Virus record (IMG/VR): IMGVR_UViG_3300020467_000010
Location: 1 to 44,158 of that record
From: a virus
Reading direction: 5' to 3' (one strand)
DNA length: 44,158 nucleotides
Made by a program: the position numbers and the translations under genes. Below are positions 3,212-15,112 of the stretch, piece after piece (within the stretch, counting starts at the first letter, position 1; every line of letters starts with the position of its first letter). The notes under the pieces are model-generated. The model was not told where the DNA came from and ran no database searches. It was given only the letters and a program-made list of their open reading frames with translations.

Positions 3212-4220
3212 ATCCGAACTCCTTAGCAGCAACTTCATCTAGTGCTTGTAGAACTTCGGGTGTGAAATATTTCTCTGGGTTACTCAAGATTTGTTTAGGA
3301 TATAGATTAACTTCTCCCATCTTATATCTGTTACCTATTCTTGTAAACACTCCGTGTTTCTCTCCTAACTCAAGAAGACCATAATACTTATCAAGTCCTC
3401 TCTCATCATAGAATAGTCTTGATTCTATCTTAGCATTCTCTTTGGTGAACCTAGACTTCTTAGTCTCACATTTGATAATGTTACCGATCACATCCTTACC
3501 ATCTTTCTCTTTAGATTTGCTGAGGTATATGATAGTAGATGCTGCATACTTAAGACCACTACCACCACCCATCTCTTTCATAGGTACATAAGCACCCACT
3601 ACATCATAGGTATGGTTGGTAACAATCATTGGTACATTTGCTTTACCTAATTTGAGAGTAAGAACTCTGAAGATAGACTTAACAACCTGTGCTCTAGTCA
3701 TGTCACGAGTATCTTTACCTGCTTCAGTATCTTCTACCTCTTTACTGGTAGATAACATACCAAGACTATCTAACACAAACATCAATGGTTTACGTTCTTC
3801 TTCTTTCTGTGCCAGATACTTATCAATAATCTTAATTGCTTGCTGACGAAACTCCTGTACAGTTACAACAGGCACAATCATCATACGATTAGAATCGATA
3901 CCACGACTCTCAATCATCTCTTTACTTATAGCACTCTCAGACTCAAAATAAATAACCCCACCATCACTATGGTCGTTGAGGAAAGACTGTACAATCCCAA
4001 GACAAAAATAAGTTTTGCCTGTACTCGACTCACCTGCGAGAGCTGTGATCTTGTTCCCTGGAACTCCACCTTTGATGCTTCCTGAGACAAGAGCGTTAAA
4101 GAGGTAACTGCCCGTGTCGATAAAATTATTTGTGTCACCAGAAGCGACACCATCACTAACGATACTAGCGTATTCATTACCTATTTCTCCTGCTATGTCC
4201 TGTAAAAATGAACTTGTCAT
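3201..4220 (-). CDS. uvsX: UvsX RecA-like recombinase
   Basis: UvsX forms filaments on ssDNA and drives strand exchange and recombination-dependent replication. The Walker A motif GESSTGKT is at 63-70, followed by [14 protein letters not shown], a Walker B FVLDSLG, and the DNA-binding-loop region [14 protein letters not shown]. Length from ATG 4220 is 339 aa (T4 UvsX is 391). That start overlaps the gp43 stop as ATGA; the frame extends another 14 residues upstream, but those would lie in the gp43 end. It forms a recombination set with uvsW, uvsY and 46/47 elsewhere in the window. Confidence 0.95.
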
Positions 4221-8505: not shown

Positions 8506-8569
8506 GCACACTTCTTACCCACTAGCAGTAGTGCTATCCGTATAAGTACCTGGTGAACATAATTTTTTT

Positions 8570-8577
8570 GATAAATA
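8570..8577 (+). promoter_or_regulatory. T4-type late promoter for the exported cassette
   Basis: The plus strand reads GATAAATA, one base from the late consensus, ending 33 nt before the ATG at 8611. The predicted start near 8584 leaves a leader with a clear GGAG ribosome site. A TATAAGTA at 8541-8548 is a second, weaker candidate. Confidence 0.65.
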
Positions 8578-8610
8578 GAGCTAGTAATCCTACAACTAAA
8601 ACGGAGAACA

Positions 8611-9123
8611 ATGAAGAAATTAATTTTACTTCTTGGTATGGGGATGCTGTTACCAACTGCTGCGAATGCAGATCTAGTTCATAGATTGACTACCAGTACA
8701 CAGTTAACTGTAGACGGGGCAGCAACACAGAGTACAAGAATAGGTAGTACTTACAGTGTAAGTGGTAACAACATCAAAGTGGCATCATCAGACGATCACT
8801 TCGGTAAGCTAGTAACACCAAGTGGTACTGCTGCTGCAACACTTGACGCAGGTACATACGATATTAATACTACAGGCTCAGCTTTCAGCTTTAGTGAAAG
8901 TTTCGTCGCAGGTGACGCTGTAAATACTATCGGTAGTGGTGTAGACGTGACCAGTGGTGTTGTCGCAGACATGCCAGCTTTCGGTATCACAACTACTCAA
9001 AGTGGCGGTGTCGCAGGAACCCTTGCAGGAACTATAACCTCAGCAGGTGTGATGACAATAACAGCTGGTGGAGCTGGCACTACAGCTACGGGTCAATTCG
9101 TATCTGAACTCACCATAAATTAG
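8611..9123 (+). CDS. Exported beta-rich protein 1, 170 aa
   Basis: The N-terminus MKKLILLLGMGMLLPTAANA is a textbook Sec signal peptide with likely cleavage after ANA (residue 20). The mature part is very rich in Thr, Ser, Gly and Ala, with almost no charged residues, and reads as a repetitive beta structure. The segment AGTYDINTTGSAFSFSES resembles one in the next protein. Homologues are, as I recall, hypothetical proteins of marine T4-like phages. ATG 8611 has GGAG 5-7 nt upstream. It is the first gene of the only plus-strand operon here. It could be a virion surface or secreted protein; the function is unknown. Confidence 0.8.
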   Translation: MKKLILLLGMGMLLPTAANADLVHRLTTSTQLTVDGAATQSTRIGSTYSVSGNNIKVASSDDHFGKLVTPSGTAAATLDAGTYDINTTGSAFSFSESFVAGDAVNTIGSGVDVTSGVVADMPAFGITTTQSGGVAGTLAGTITSAGVMTITAGGAGTTATGQFVSELTIN

Positions 9124-9134
9124 GGATATATATA

Positions 9135-9587
9135 ATGAAGAAGGTAGTATTAGCTAGTCTTACTATCATGTCACTAGGTACCCCAGTGATGGCGGTGCCC
9201 GTGGTCCCCAATTTCACCCAAGGCTCCATGACTAGCCACACCGAGACAACTTCTACGGTGACGGAGACCATAAATTCTATAGATTATAATACAGGATGGC
9301 AATATTCAGTGACAGGGACAGGGGTTTCCCACAATGGCGACAGCATCTTACCAGATGGAGTGACAACATCAGGAAGCATAGACCTTCTTGGAACGTCGGG
9401 AACTACACCCCAAACTACACATGGTCTGGATCTCTCAACACTAGGAGACTATACCATAACGACACCAGGAGCTGCCTTCCAACTCACAAATACATATCAA
9501 GGACCAGGGATCTCCAACCAGACCGTGATCCAAAGAGAAACCACCGTAACAAGCGTCACAGATACAACAAGTATCTTCTCCCAGTAA
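9135..9587 (+). CDS. Exported beta-rich protein 2, 150 aa
   Basis: A signal peptide (MKKVVLASLTIMSLGTPVMA, cleavage after residue 20) is followed by a Thr/Ser/Gly-rich, low-charge sequence. LGDYTITTPGAAFQLTNTY aligns by eye with GTYDINTTGSAFSFSESF of the preceding protein, so the two may be paralogues. The gene starts 11 nt after its neighbour, with AGGG as ribosome site. Codon use is unusual: from about 9190 it is richer in C-ending codons than the AT-rich surroundings. From 9296 a second frame is open on the same strand and runs into the next gene. Confidence 0.78.
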   Translation: MKKVVLASLTIMSLGTPVMAVPVVPNFTQGSMTSHTETTSTVTETINSIDYNTGWQYSVTGTGVSHNGDSILPDGVTTSGSIDLLGTSGTTPQTTHGLDLSTLGDYTITTPGAAFQLTNTYQGPGISNQTVIQRETTVTSVTDTTSIFSQ

Positions 9588-10444
9588 TAGCAGCAATTAC
9601 ATGTTCTCCTGCTGCTATGGCTACAGACGTAGGTGGTGTTTCTGCGACTGCTAATCCAATCGCCAACTCTTCAGGCTCAGTCACCAACCAGGCAATACAA
9701 GTTTTACAAGGTCCATATATTAACAACCAATATGGTGGTGGTATATCATGTCAAGGACCTACCCTCAACATCACCCCCTTCGTTACTGGGGCGTTATCTG
9801 AACAGCATCCTTATGAATCGTACTACAATGACCCTGTTTATAATAACGCAGATAATGATGATGACGGTATTCCCGATAATCCAGGTGAAGTTCTTTACTA
9901 CATTCCAACAAGAACTGGTCAGAAAAACAATACCAACCTATCCTTGGGTATCAGTGCGACAGTTTCTATACCCCTAGACAGACAACTGCAGCAGGGTTGT
10001 AAGAACGCCTTTAATACACAGATAGCCTTACAACAACAAGTCTTGGCTAATAAGCGTCTAGACTTCGAAATTGCAAGGCTAAAGAACTGTGGTGAATTGA
10101 TGCAGCGAGGCATATCGTTCGCACCAGGTACACAATATGCTAAGGTCTGTGCTGATGTAGTTGTAGCTAACCATACTATAGTAGGTAATGAACATAAGGA
10201 TGGTCACACCCACTCAATACCACAACAGTTCCTCAACTGGGAACCTAAGCAGACATCTGTAGTGGAAATAGATAAGGACGGTAACAAGCAATTAAAGCAA
10301 GTTACATTTGAGATCAAGACTAATGGTACTGAAGTATCTACATTCTCATACGATGCTGACGGGAACGCTACGTTGATCAAACGGGAGAACCTCGGACCAA
10401 ACGAGAACTTCGAACTAGAGAATAAAGACAAACCAGAAAAATGA
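9563..10444 (+). CDS. Exported Cys-containing protein 3 with unclear start
   Basis: The frame carries an export-like segment (KYLLPVIAAITCSPAAMA, cleavage before TDVGG) then a mature part of about 275 aa. That part has LQGPYINNQYGGGISCQGP, a DNDDDGIPDNPGE loop like calcium-binding type-3 repeats, four cysteines (QGC, NCGE, KVCAD and ISC contexts) and a His-rich HKDGHTHS. I recall related proteins in marine phages beginning MKKYLLP. Here no ATG, GTG or TTG lies in frame near the export segment: the nearest ATGs are 9296 (inside the previous gene) and 9617 (after it). The start given is therefore approximate. Function unknown. Confidence 0.7.
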   Translation, partial: YNKYLLPVIAAITCSPAAMATDVGGVSATANPIANSSGSVTNQAIQVLQGPYINNQYGGGISCQGPTLNITPFVTGALSEQHPYESYYNDPVYNNADNDDDGIPDNPGEVLYYIPTRTGQKNNTNLSLGISATVSIPLDRQLQQGCKNAFNTQIALQQQVLANKRLDFEIARLKNCGELMQRGISFAPGTQYAKVCADVVVANHTIVGNEHKDGHTHSIPQQFLNWEPKQTSVVEIDKDGNKQLKQVTFEIKTNGTEVSTFSYDADGNATLIKRENLGPNENFELENKDKPEK

Positions 10445-10575
10445 AACTAAGGTTGCCCAAGAAAAAATTATTTAAGTATGCACTTAAAATGAATAGGTGG
10501 CCAGTGCATTGGTTTGACCAGAAAAAAGATAAAGAGAAAGAGAGACAAGAACGCATCAAAAAATTATACCCATGA
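10441..10575 (+). CDS. 44-aa basic protein
   Basis: A 44-codon frame begins MKLRLPKKKLFKYALKMNRW and ends KKLYP. It overlaps the stop of the exported protein (ATGA) and its own TGA overlaps the ATG of peptide deformylase. About 40 percent of residues are Lys or Arg, in two helices separated by WPVHWFD. The exact overlaps on both sides support a real gene. It could bind nucleic acid or membrane surfaces; I recall similar small proteins beside this cassette in related phages but no known function. Confidence 0.65.
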   Translation: MKLRLPKKKLFKYALKMNRWPVHWFDQKKDKEKERQERIKKLYP

Positions 10576-11009
10576 TTAAAGATCTAATTAACAACACAGA
10601 CACCCTCCTCTCACGGAGGGTTAATAATTGCTCATACAACTTAGATAGATCTGAGTTAGCACAGACATTGGTAGAGAGTATGCTACACCATAGAGGTGTA
10701 GGTCTGTCTGCTAATCAGATTGGTATAGAAGAGAGAGCATTCGCTATGGTATCTGACATAGAGACCATGCAAGTTATTGTGGTGTTTAATCCTAAGATTA
10801 TTAAAGAGTATGATAGAAAAGAAATAATGGAAGAAGGATGTCTATCCTATCCAGAGACATTCTTAAAGATAGAAAGACCATGGGGTATCGTGGTCAAGTT
10901 CGAGGACGAATATAAGAGAGTACATAAAGTCAAGATGGAAGGACTGATGGCAAGAATATTTCAGCACGAATACGATCACATGGAAGGAATTAACTTTACC
11001 CAGAAATAA
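10572..11009 (+). CDS. def: Peptide deformylase
   Basis: Removes the formyl group from the N-terminal methionine of new proteins. All three catalytic motifs are present: GVGLSANQIG (42-51), EEGCLSYP (87-94, metal ligand C90), and HEYDHMEG (132-139, metal ligands H132 and H136 with E133). At 145 aa it lacks the longer C-terminal tail of bacterial enzymes, as is usual for marine phage deformylases. It is the last gene of the plus-strand operon, overlapping the 44-aa gene by 4 nt and followed by a strong terminator. Confidence 0.95.
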   Translation: MIKDLINNTDTLLSRRVNNCSYNLDRSELAQTLVESMLHHRGVGLSANQIGIEERAFAMVSDIETMQVIVVFNPKIIKEYDRKEIMEEGCLSYPETFLKIERPWGIVVKFEDEYKRVHKVKMEGLMARIFQHEYDHMEGINFTQK

Positions 11010-11011
11010 AA

Positions 11012-11032
11012 AAAGACCCCTAAGGGGTCTTT
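11012..11032. terminator. Bidirectional intrinsic terminator between convergent operons
   Basis: A 9-bp perfect stem (AAAGACCCC and GGGGTCTTT) with a TAA loop has A-rich sequence on the left and T-rich on the right. It can therefore stop both the plus-strand deformylase operon and the minus-strand 53-aa gene that ends at 11045. The stem is identical to that of the gp23 terminator at 33111-33132. Confidence 0.85.
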
Positions 11033-11044
11033 ATTATTTTAAAT

Positions 11045-11333: not shown

Positions 11334-12137
11334 CTAGTCCTTTTTCTTTTTCTGTTTCTTAAGAGGGGGTAAACCTTTCTTTTCTCTATATTCATTTGCT
11401 TTGATCTCCCACCTATTAGTATGAGGAGGAGTCCTTCCTAGTATTGCATTGACCTTAGCAACTCCTTTCTTAGCCAGTGGTTTAAATACTTTCATCAAAG
11501 CATCGGCAAGAGGTTTTGCTAACAACGCTGACGCTGCTGCAGTAGTAGCAATCGCTGCTGTAGTTGTGACCACAGAAAGTTCTGGAACATACTCACTAAA
11601 AACAATTGGTTCAGGAGGTTGTTCTATAATTTGTTCTGTTGGTGGTTCTACTTTATCTACACATTGCTGAGTAATAGGATCCCTGACCTTAGGTCTAACA
11701 CAAGGGGTCTCTGGTACCTCTGGTGGAGGTGGCATTGGTGGAGGTTCTATCTTAAAGTCTGGTTTATATTCTTCTTGCTGAAATTCTAATTCATCTGAAA
11801 CATAATCTATAGGATTAAATGATGGTGTACCTGCGTCACAGAATGTCTGTACACCTTTAGGATCATCATCCATTAGTTCATCATTCTTTCCTTTGTTATC
11901 CTTGTGTGCTTCCACACAACCAGGTATATTAACAATAGGTTTACCTAGTTCAGTAACAACTGGAACTGTAACATTTCTGACAACAGGTGGTTCATTATTG
12001 TTTACCTTTATCTCCCCATTAAAAGACCCCCTGATCTCTATCACTGGGATATCGACCTGTACATTGGGTACATAAGGGGGTTGTATTGTATTAATCTCCT
12101 GTACCCTTACAAATATATCATGTATAGGGTCAGACAT
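11334..12137 (-). CDS. Proline-rich protein with C-terminal membrane segment, 267 aa
   Basis: The N-terminus (MSDPIHDIFVRVQEINTIQ) leads into a Val/Pro-rich beta region (VDIPVIEIRGSFNGEIKV, NVTVPVVTELGKPIVNIPGC). An acidic linker, a proline stretch (EPPPMPPPPEVPETPC) and an Ala-rich hydrophobic segment (TTTAAIATTAAASALLAKPL, about 188-207) follow, then a basic tail rich in Lys. I recall clear relatives in many marine T4-like phages, all of unknown role. Its late promoter context and extended architecture suggest a virion-associated or envelope-contacting protein, by inference only. The start ATG follows the TAA of the previous gene directly. Confidence 0.75.
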   Translation of the reverse strand: MSDPIHDIFVRVQEINTIQPPYVPNVQVDIPVIEIRGSFNGEIKVNNNEPPVVRNVTVPVVTELGKPIVNIPGCVEAHKDNKGKNDELMDDDPKGVQTFCDAGTPSFNPIDYVSDELEFQQEEYKPDFKIEPPPMPPPPEVPETPCVRPKVRDPITQQCVDKVEPPTEQIIEQPPEPIVFSEYVPELSVVTTTAAIATTAAASALLAKPLADALMKVFKPLAKKGVAKVNAILGRTPPHTNRWEIKANEYREKKGLPPLKKQKKKKD

Positions 12138-12380
12138 TTATGGTATAGGGTTACTAGGTGCAGGTAAGATTGCAGGTCCTGTGGTAGGGGGAACTGAAGG
12201 TACAGCAGGTAATGCTGTCTTAACTAAACTAGGTAATGCCTTTTGTAATTCTTCGGCAACTCTTACTTTAGTTGCTTCTATAATAGCATCCTTTCTGATG
12301 AATACATATCCACCAAGACCAACTACACCAAGTGCTACAGCACCTGAGAAGATGGCAATTCCATTAATAATTTTTTGCAT
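12138..12380 (-). CDS. Small membrane-anchored protein, 80 aa
   Basis: An N-terminal membrane helix (GIAIFSGAVALGVVGLGGYVFI, about 7-28) is followed by a charged helix (KDAIIEATKVRVAEELQKAL) and a proline-rich tail ending PAPSNPIP. ATG 12380 has GAGGA 9 nt upstream. The next gene begins directly after its TAA. This anchor-helix-proline plan recurs in the neighbouring late genes, so the cluster may act at the membrane. No family is recognised. Confidence 0.7.
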   Translation of the reverse strand: MQKIINGIAIFSGAVALGVVGLGGYVFIRKDAIIEATKVRVAEELQKALPSLVKTALPAVPSVPPTTGPAILPAPSNPIP

Positions 12381-13234: not shown

Positions 13235-13636
13235 TTACTTTGTATCTGGGACTATCTTCACAGGACCTGATTCGATCCTTATTGTTTGAGCAGGAGCAGT
13301 CTCTGATGCTTTAGCTATAAGAAACTCCATATCTTTCTTAGATATGTTAGCACTACCACCATTGTCACCATTCTTTTTCTTACCTCCTGCAGCGACCCCG
13401 AAGGTAGCTAAAGTTCCTGTGAACACCGAAGCTATGAAAGTTGGATCAATTCTTTCTCCTCGTTCGTAACCTGGTATTTTAACATAATTTAAAGTTAAAA
13501 TTCCTGCGGACCAGACGAGAACGACTACTCTTATTAAAGTCGCTAAGTATTGGAGTTGTTCCTCCTTATCGTCAACTTTCTCTTTTATTTTACCGAGGAT
13601 ACCTTTTGGTTTTTCCTCTTTCTTTATTTCAGCCAT
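13235..13636 (-). CDS. Two-helix membrane protein, holin-like candidate, 133 aa
   Basis: A basic N-terminus (KKEEKPKGILGKIKEKVDDK) is followed by two hydrophobic segments, ATLIRVVVLVWSAGILTLNY (about 31-50) and TFIASVFTGTLATFGVAAGG (about 66-85), then a Lys/Gly linker and a soluble tail. Two membrane segments with a short loop and charged ends are compatible with a holin-type topology, but no lysis partner (endolysin or spanin) is recognisable nearby, so the name stays tentative. It is read from a late element at 13659-13666, about 23 nt before its ATG. Confidence 0.7.
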   Translation of the reverse strand: MAEIKKEEKPKGILGKIKEKVDDKEEQLQYLATLIRVVVLVWSAGILTLNYVKIPGYERGERIDPTFIASVFTGTLATFGVAAGGKKKNGDNGGSANISKKDMEFLIAKASETAPAQTIRIESGPVKIVPDTK

Positions 13637-13657: not shown

Positions 13658-15112
13658 CTATTTATCAAATAAATTATTACCAATTACTAAATCGTCTATT
13701 CCTTTCTTAGAAAACATCTCCTTCGCCTCCCAAATCCTAGACGCTATGGGCGATCCCCCGATATTTAAGGAAGTATTAAGAAGTACAGAGTCACCTGTGA
13801 TTTCTTTATATTTCCTTAAGAGTCTAGCAAAACTATCATCACCATCAACTGTCTGAATCCTACAAGATCCATCTACATGTGTGACTGATGTGAGTTCTTT
13901 ATCTAATACGGGTACTGATGTGTTCATGTACGGGGAGTCACCATCGTAATCAAAATACTTAGAGGTATCTTCCTTCAGTACAGCAGCACCAAATGGTCTA
14001 AATCCTTCTCTATGCTTGACTCTTTCGTTAAGAAACTGCTTGGCCCTGCGGTTCCTCGCTTGCATCAAAATACTTCTATGCCCTAGAGCACGGGGACCAA
14101 TCTCTCCATGTCCCTGATACCAAGCTACTATCCTACCAAGACTTAACTGTAGTGCTGCCTTCTCTATAGTCCTATCGTCTGGTTCATCCTCTGGTGCTTC
14201 ATCATCTTGCCAGAATGGGAACCCTTCATTACTAAATGGTTCTTCATGGAACCTTCTTCTTAAAAATTCTACTGCTCCTAAGGATAAACCACAGTCATTT
14301 GCATGAGGTGGTATCAGGACTTGCTGACCTGTTTTCCTGATCTTACCATTAAAGTTGCAATTCTGTGCAACACCACCACTATACCCAATGATGTCATCGC
14401 CACCAACGGGATGGCTGAGATATAAAGCAAGCTGGTCTCCAGTGTATTCATGTACTGTCCTTAACCAATTGATATCAAAGTCTTTATCCCACTTCCTGTG
14501 CCACGATTTGTAATTCCATATGCCTTTTATGTTAGTAAAACCGTAATGAGATATCTTATCATAATACTCTCTATCTATAAGACCATAAGCAGCAAGTCCC
14601 ATGACTTTACCTGCTAAATCTAACCCCTGTGGATCTGCTTTAAGTCCTACCTGTATACCAACATTTGCCATCTCTTTACCGATGGATCCATACTCCTCTG
14701 CATCATGTGTTATTGATACCTTCTCACCCTGTATCAGTGAGAATGAATGATTATCGTTGCCAAACCCATCATAAACATAGCCAGTATGAGGTACTTCCCC
14801 AACTGGCCAGATGCTTAAGTGATGTGCATAGTGGTGGTCTACTGCAAACGTCCTGCAGGGAAACCCCATCTCTAATTCTCTATATGATTCTCCTTCTTCG
14901 AAATTGATATCATCTGTGATGATAGCAATAGCATCTAAATCATCTACCTTGACACCCCAAGAGTCTAGGACATCTTCCCATTGCCATATGTTATCCCATC
15001 CATGATGTTTTATACCGTATAACCTTTCCGTTGCACAATACTTAACCTTCTTACCGTCAGTGTAAGTAACATTGGAATCGTGGTCATCGATTCTCAATCC
15101 AAGAAATTTCAT
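13658..15112 (-). CDS. Carbamoyltransferase (NodU/CmcH family)
   Basis: The 484-aa enzyme matches the carbamoyltransferase family that moves a carbamoyl group from carbamoyl phosphate via carbamoyl-AMP. Visible motifs are HHYAHHLSIW (metal-binding His cluster, near residue 90), YDGFGNDNHSFSL, GYSGGVAQNCNFNGKI, HANDCGLSLGA, and the YrdC-like C-terminal GEIGPRALGHRSIL. Known homologues modify antibiotics and Nod factors; phage versions might decorate nucleotides, sugars or surface molecules. The substrate cannot be told here. It follows regA with a 4-nt overlap, and its last codons contain the late element for the next gene. Confidence 0.9.
   Translation of the reverse strand: MKFLGLRIDDHDSNVTYTDGKKVKYCATERLYGIKHHGWDNIWQWEDVLDSWGVKVDDLDAIAIITDDINFEEGESYRELEMGFPCRTFAVDHHYAHHLSIWPVGEVPHTGYVYDGFGNDNHSFSLIQGEKVSITHDAEEYGSIGKEMANVGIQVGLKADPQGLDLAGKVMGLAAYGLIDREYYDKISHYGFTNIKGIWNYKSWHRKWDKDFDINWLRTVHEYTGDQLALYLSHPVGGDDIIGYSGGVAQNCNFNGKIRKTGQQVLIPPHANDCGLSLGAVEFLRRRFHEEPFSNEGFPFWQDDEAPEDEPDDRTIEKAALQLSLGRIVAWYQGHGEIGPRALGHRSILMQARNRRAKQFLNERVKHREGFRPFGAAVLKEDTSKYFDYDGDSPYMNTSVPVLDKELTSVTHVDGSCRIQTVDGDDSFARLLRKYKEITGDSVLLNTSLNIGGSPIASRIWEAKEMFSKKGIDDLVIGNNLFDK
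13659..13666 (-). promoter_or_regulatory. Late promoter element (GATAAATA)
   Basis: GATAAATA on the minus strand is formed by the last codons and stop of the carbamoyltransferase gene. It marks the switch from the replication block to the late membrane-protein block, about 23 nt before the ATG at 13636. Confidence 0.55.

Follow-up and report, generated by a model that had tools for sequence, protein, structure and literature searches.

Two-component spanins, such as lambda Rz/Rz1, T7 gp18.5/18.7 and P2 LysB/LysC, are encoded by embedded, overlapped or adjacent gene pairs that are out of frame where they overlap. The i-spanin has an N-terminal transmembrane anchor and type II topology, the o-spanin is an outer-membrane lipoprotein carrying a lipobox, and u-spanins (T1 gp11 type) combine a lipobox with a C-terminal transmembrane helix. 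No identifiable spanin was found in ~20 sequenced phages of marine picocyanobacteria, among them P-SSP7, Syn9, Syn1, Syn19, S-SM1, S-SM2, P-SSM2 and P-SSM4, and these phages may not need outer-membrane disruption (PMC6139136). Here, we analyse the IMG/VR virus record IMGVR_UViG_3300020467_000010 (positions 1 to 44,158; the window hereafter denotes this whole stretch of 44,158 bases), which encodes three predicted secreted proteins on its plus strand: ORF1 (8611-9123), ORF2 (9135-9587) and ORF3 (9296-10444), where ORF stands for open reading frame. The last two form an out-of-frame overlapping pair, which is also present in the spanin-less Syn9, Syn1, Syn19, S-SM1, S-SM2, P-SSM2 and P-SSP7.

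Like the two-component spanins, ORF2/ORF3 are an overlapping pair of exported, apparently late proteins with conserved cysteines, which in T7-like genomes are adjacent to a gene for a small holin-like protein and close to terminase; their relative arrangement is that described for spanin pairs. With regard to a possible lysis cassette, the pair is found beside the gene for DUF6450, a putative holin, in podoviruses and near lysozyme in DSL-LC02 and DSL-LC03, but no lysozyme was found in most carriers. In contrast to spanins, ORF2/ORF3 have neither a lipoprotein partner nor an inner-membrane anchor, and no sequence relation to spanins was found. ORF2 is beta-rich, while ORF3 has a predicted cleavable signal peptide following a very long N-terminal region. 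None of ORF1, ORF2 and ORF3 has the lipobox of an outer-membrane lipoprotein, as required of an o-spanin. Where an i-spanin would have its anchor, ORF3 displays a hydrophobic core that is short and precedes a signal peptidase I type site (198/198 sequences), and the u-spanin combination is likewise absent from ORF2 and ORF3. Judged by sequence, the module is spanin-like in gene logic and position, but lacks the defining spanin features.

ORF3 starts within ORF2 in a conserved open frame

The export segment of ORF3 (KRHRYNKYLLPVIAAITCSPAAMA) has no ATG, GTG or TTG nearby, the sole in-frame start being the ATG at 9296, which is located inside ORF2 in the -1 frame. This creates a dual-coding overlap of 292 nucleotides (9296-9587, plus strand), with ORF2 in frame 0 and ORF3 in a stop-free -1 frame, whereas 5.8 stops would be expected from synonymous shuffling. 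In the IMG/VR relatives, the ORF3 frame is similarly open back through the end of ORF2, to a start either 55-59 or 97-98 codons before the ORF2 stop. No -1 frame stop is present within the overlap in 49/49 nonredundant overlapping myoviruses, compared to the 2-8 per genome expected upon synonymous recoding of ORF2, while +1 frame stops in the same genomes are near expectation.

We counted stop-making sites, defined as a T preceding a codon starting AA, AG or GA, inside the overlap and in the upstream part of ORF2. Across 170 nonredundant T4-like, T7-like and siphovirus cyanophage genomes, 0/1705 such sites carry a T in the overlap compared to 670/1872 upstream. The same is seen for the myoviruses (0/526 versus 179/573; Fisher 3e-58), the siphovirus clade (0/320 versus 467/894; Fisher 3e-83) and the podovirus clade (0/859 versus 24/405; Fisher 9e-13), where all counts and Fisher values are per sequence rather than per independent event and uncorrected for relatedness, yet the genomes differ at about half of their fourfold sites. 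A natural control is provided by relative L079 (4030-5252), whose ORF3 has its own ATG after the end of ORF2 and whose -1 frame contains stops at -17, -13, -9 and -3. Among the myovirus relatives found, L079 alone has an independent ORF3 start and no overlap, and it could be helpful in addressing the ancestral state.

The ORF3 start codon derives from a tryptophan codon of ORF2, with xxA TGG yielding ATG and xxG TGG yielding GTG. The base directly 5' of this TGG is A or G in 167/167 genomes, while the remaining ORF2 TGG codons mostly follow a T or C. All 167 genomes retain a start codon close to the boundary of the open frame, ATG being replaced by GTG only, as seen for P-SSP7. A GGAG resembling a Shine-Dalgarno (SD) sequence is located ~10 bases 5' of the start in most genomes of the group starting at around -55; no clear SD precedes the start in the -97 group, which includes the window. 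Differences at fourfold sites are similar in the overlap and upstream (0.516 versus 0.584 for myoviruses, 0.464 versus 0.463 for siphoviruses), giving little sign that the residues of the overprinted ORF3 N-terminus are under selection. Hence, selection keeps the openness and the start of the overprinted stretch, while its sequence is hardly constrained.

A non-AUG start at the ORF3 signal peptide was considered and rejected, because the frame is kept stop-free far upstream. A sequencing frameshift in the window contig is ruled out by the same arrangement in ~170 nonredundant genomes, including isolates. The overlap is unusually well supported for a double-stranded DNA phage, whatever its function. 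The Syn9 and S-RIM8 records already draw the ORF2/ORF3 overlap, uncommented. New with respect to these records are the constraint on the overlap and its internal start, its occurrence in both podo- and siphoviruses, and its linkage to DUF6450.

The overlap explains why the ORF3 start, or the whole of ORF2, has been missed in the reference genomes P-SSP7, P-SSP10, 9515-10a and S-CAM9. ORF2 is unannotated in P-SSP10 (locus L088, ~3717-4088) and 9515-10a (L090, ~3651-4022), because gene calling favoured the longer ORF3 frame at this place; here the -1 frame has no stop over the full length of ORF2. The annotated start of P-SSP7 PSSP7_045 (L291, 4998-5453) is too far downstream and removes the signal peptide, the likely start being a GTG inside PSSP7_044.

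Export signals and protein families

Typical signal peptides are located at the N-termini of ORF1 (8611-8670) and ORF2 (9135-9194) of the window, and neither contains a cysteine. Relatives of ORF2 have unalike signal peptides, all of which end before a common mature start, VPVVPNF. In ORF3, ~65 to 110 residues precede the signal peptide core. A signal peptidase I type site (small-x-small, positions -1/-3) occurs just before the mature protein in 198/198 distinct sequences, and a lipobox-like motif in none (0/198 signal regions). In the window, cleavage is predicted before position 9623, leaving a mature part (9623-10441) with four invariant cysteines. No 19-residue segment of ORF3 scores above 1.6. 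By sequence, ORF2 and ORF3 have the n-h-c signal and small residues at -1/-3 of Sec/signal peptidase I substrates, with cleavage predicted, and there is strong indirect evidence for their export and cleavage.

Extended signal peptides, for example those of type V autotransporters, have a long n-region before the hydrophobic core and the signal peptidase I site. ORF3 resembles these in its long n-region, but differs in that this region is overprinted on another gene and nearly unconstrained in sequence. The original prediction had proposed that a late set of three exported proteins is sent to the host envelope. This is well supported by the sequence features above, namely the common ORF2 mature start, the ORF3 cleavage sites and the invariant cysteines; export signals are indeed seen in all three proteins, but the out-of-frame start of the third gene inside ORF2 had been missed.

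The three proteins match families that have no assigned function: ORF1 phrog_564, ORF2 phrog_650 (2.1e-51) and DUF6322, and ORF3 phrog_848. The match of ORF2 to the DUF6322 profile (116.8 bits compared to a curated cut-off of 30.6) makes it a member of this family. Their counterparts in isolates are Syn9 gp167/gp166/gp165 and S-SM1 T4-GC 237/236/235 for ORF1/ORF2/ORF3, respectively, which belong to the same protein families as the window trio. ORF1 is distantly paralogous to ORF2 (hhalign E 2.7e-6), and ORF2 has a conserved C-terminus, S-x-F-x-Q. ORF3 matches were found in 442 GenBank phage records, nearly all Synechococcus or Prochlorococcus phages by name and the others marine or uncultured.

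No convincing cellular homologues were found, the matches to genome assemblies being either to Prochlorococcus/Synechococcus single-cell assemblies or to non-cyanobacterial ones that are seemingly phage-contaminated. As a separate observation, cyanophage-like sequence is present inside assemblies of unrelated bacteria and archaea (the 188 kb Nonlabens xiamenensis contig L259, as well as L255, L260 and L261), probably through contamination. A domain profile scan recognised no receptor-like, lectin or adhesin domain. S-CREM2 gp174/gp176, reported in a virion proteome (PMC10665884), were considered as ORF1/ORF3 and found not to be homologues. S-PM2_163/165, reported as structural (PMC2984593), correspond in the current record to small, unrelated genes, and the module is absent from S-PM2. 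Virion labels in the S-SM1 record are uninformative, as the known virion protein T4-GC 969 is likewise called hypothetical.

AlphaFold2 models of ORF2 (mean predicted local distance difference test, pLDDT, of 75) are all beta with two long terminal strands, while that of ORF3 (pLDDT 69) suggests a beta domain and a long helix. Non-significant matches include pore-forming barrels and ring proteins and can serve as a lead only; the best PDB match of ORF2, also non-significant, is a phage collar protein.

Distribution and gene neighbourhood

The ORF2/ORF3 pair is present in the T7-like cyanopodoviruses KBS-P-1A, P-SSP10, 9515-10a and P-SSP7, in the siphovirus-type Prochlorococcus cyanophages MED4-117 and MED4-184, and in freshwater myoviruses. 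At least one of the ORF2/ORF3 genes was found by similarity in the surveyed phages P-SSM4, S-RSM4, S-ShM2, P-HM2, S-SSM5 and S-SSM7. ORF1 is present in 73/81 siphovirus loci and 0/84 podovirus loci.

In podoviruses, a proline-rich one-helix protein, DUF6450, ORF2 and ORF3 occur in this order between the tail fibre and terminase genes. The P-SSP7 order is tail fibre genes, a protein with one transmembrane segment, DUF6450, ORF2, ORF3, small terminase and large terminase, the place where T7 keeps its lysis genes. MED4-117 has the order DUF6450, ORF1, ORF2, ORF3, followed by convergent phrog_570 and phrog_568 genes, similar to the window. A stretch of ~6 kb in DSL-LC03 encodes a C39 peptidase, a phage lysozyme (6e-22), DUF6450 and the trio, and DSL-LC02 is similar (both freshwater myoviruses).

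DUF6450 (PF20048; phrog_721, phrog_2714 and phrog_21865) is encoded in the window on the minus strand (13235-13636; PF20048 7.1e-33) as a small membrane protein co-inherited with ORF2/ORF3, and two transmembrane regions are given in the P-SSP7 record. It is present in 14/14 ORF3-carrying isolates and in 0/7 isolates that lack ORF3, nine of the 14 having been picked for their ORF3. It was also detected in 16/17 IMG/VR contigs at E <=0.001 (15 above cut-off), and the GenBank counts for ORF3 and DUF6450 are equal (442 and 442). DUF6450 thus occurs in the same genomes as the trio, yet carries no holin annotation; size, hydropathy and position make it a candidate holin.

The module-less S-PM2 and S-CREM2 have their own C39 peptidase and lysozyme, and no PF00959 was found in most module carriers; from the small number of genomes covered, this hints at replacement. 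In S-PM2 (L086, 5535-7801), the C39 peptidase and phage lysozyme domains are near an annotated lipoprotein precursor gene, and this could be a different exit cluster.

Proposed role and alternative explanations

An exit module at the outer membrane is proposed since the pair occurs in phages surveyed as spanin-less (PMC6139136). We consider the chances evenly balanced that ORF1-ORF2-ORF3 and DUF6450 constitute an exported host-exit (lysis) module, probably acting at the outer membrane. ORF1, ORF2 and ORF3 would be late proteins routed via the host Sec pathway. ORF2/ORF3 form an obligatory out-of-frame overlapping pair, with ribosomes initiating ORF3 within ORF2 at the tryptophan-derived ATG/GTG such that both proteins would be made together. 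The ~65 to 110 residues before the ORF3 signal core would be cytoplasmic, and following cleavage into the periplasm the invariant cysteines could pair there. DUF6450 may act in a holin-like manner at the inner membrane, with a lysozyme partner in some phages. ORF2 and ORF3, with ORF1 where present, would then form assemblies, located either in the periplasm or at the outer membrane, that disrupt the outer membrane or make holes in it, the trio thus doing the work of the spanins apparently absent from these phages. We infer simultaneous ORF2/ORF3 production, cleavage, oligomerisation and the lysis function. More tentatively, a lipoprotein-free outer-membrane disruption system, consisting of an overprinted, jointly translated secreted pair and a DUF6450 holin, possibly takes the place of spanins in a large fraction of the phages killing Prochlorococcus and Synechococcus, having been passed between T4-like, T7-like and siphovirus backbones.

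Several observations weigh against a role in host exit. The module is absent from the spanin-less S-PM2, Syn5, P60, PSS2 and S-CBS4, and the pair also from Pf-WMP4. ORF2/ORF3 have no lipobox and no transmembrane helix, hence none of the known spanin mechanisms applies. In marine myoviruses, DUF6450 is located 2-7 kb away on the opposite strand. DUF6450 does not match the T7 holin family, as no hit to PF10746 (Phage_holin_2_2, class II holin) was obtained above cut-off in 16 genomes. The PF00959 lysozyme was not found in most module carriers, the window included. Finally, confidence in the structural models is moderate, and no significant PDB match emerged from Foldseek and PDB profile searches.

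The original prediction had listed surface alteration, superinfection block, fibres and help with release as functional options. Release is now best supported, given that the genes are linked to DUF6450 and, in some phages, to lysozyme, while evidence for fibres or surface alteration was not found. Late envelope remodelling other than lysis, in which the secreted proteins cover or modify the surface of the host, for example against superinfection or virion adsorption to debris, appears unlikely. It would suit exported, Thr/Ser-rich proteins with a late-type promoter that are confined to phages of marine and freshwater picocyanobacteria from three phage families, but the linkage to DUF6450 and the endolysins of the DSL phages indicate exit, and the recognised domains include none suited to binding a surface. 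That the proteins are instead virion- or tail-associated, crossing the periplasm by an unusual route or building fibres outside the cell, we regard as improbable: virion proteins assemble in the cytoplasm, yet the trio has conserved, predicted cleavable signal peptides, and the same genes occur across phages with three unrelated tail types. The proximity of the P-SSP7 pair to tail fibre genes, as well as the long beta strands and non-significant collar match of ORF2, are consistent with such a role.

Cyanophages carry many auxiliary genes, and cyanobacterial Sec signals also lead to the thylakoid lumen. It is thus conceivable, although highly improbable, that the exported proteins are an auxiliary set for host metabolism or thylakoid-lumen physiology; cellular homologues were not found and the DUF6450 linkage suits exit better. 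Fusion of ORF2 and ORF3 into one long secreted protein by -1 programmed frameshifting, with ORF3 having no start of its own, would account for the -1 relation and fully open frame in every overlapping genome. We consider this extremely improbable given the invariably retained ORF3 start, with GTG its only substitute, and the SD-like GGAG in most of the -55 group. Furthermore, the ORF2 C-terminus is conserved even in the non-overlapping L079, and a common slippery site was not seen by eye, no systematic scan having been made.

For host exit, the conserved exported overlapping pair and the holin-like gene provide a concrete candidate in many of the phages listed as spanin-less. If correct, this would reveal the way out of the host for many marine cyanophages, viruses of the most numerous photosynthetic bacteria in the sea; leaving the host is one step by which ocean primary production is released.

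Other features of the window

The trio is part of a gene block (8611-11009) flanked by Hsp20 and a convergent leftward block. It is the sole rightward block in the window, as originally claimed, with all remaining plus-strand ORFs of at least 80 amino acids overlapping larger leftward ORFs. A late-promoter-like element, GATAAATA, is located at 8570-8577 on the plus strand. The late motif of cyanophage S-PM2 is NATAAATA (PMC2984593), and this is enriched 5' of ORF1 among the relatives (14/59 compared to ~0.8 expected). The claim that the block has its own late element thus gains support from the relatives, but not from the window itself, where the 13 copies of ATAAATA compare to 13.0 by chance and a single copy is little proof. 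The predicted shared terminator corresponds to a bidirectional hairpin (11012-11032) between the convergent gene blocks, and an Rfam search gave no match.

A 44-amino-acid basic protein (10441-10575, plus strand), for which family searches gave nothing above chance, and peptide deformylase (10572-11009, plus strand; Pfam PF01327 1.8e-34) had also been assigned to the island. Neither belongs to the conserved module: they are found in only 3/86 and 5/86 related loci, respectively, and the deformylase of the close relative P-RSM6 is ~23 kb from the trio, ruling out both as module partners. The linkage across cyanophages holds for ORF2/ORF3 in three phage families, but not for the deformylase passenger.

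The minus-strand gene at 11334-12137 (phrog_570) encodes a proline-rich protein whose single transmembrane segment is close to the C-terminus; this gene neighbours the trio in convergent orientation in myoviruses as well as in siphovirus MED4-117. The adjacent gene (phrog_568; 12138-12380, minus strand) encodes a small protein with an N-terminal transmembrane segment and a proline-rich tail, which makes the phrog_568 label 'plasmid stability' doubtful. A carbamoyltransferase gene (13658-15112, minus strand) adjoins DUF6450 in the window, and P-RSM6 has one too.

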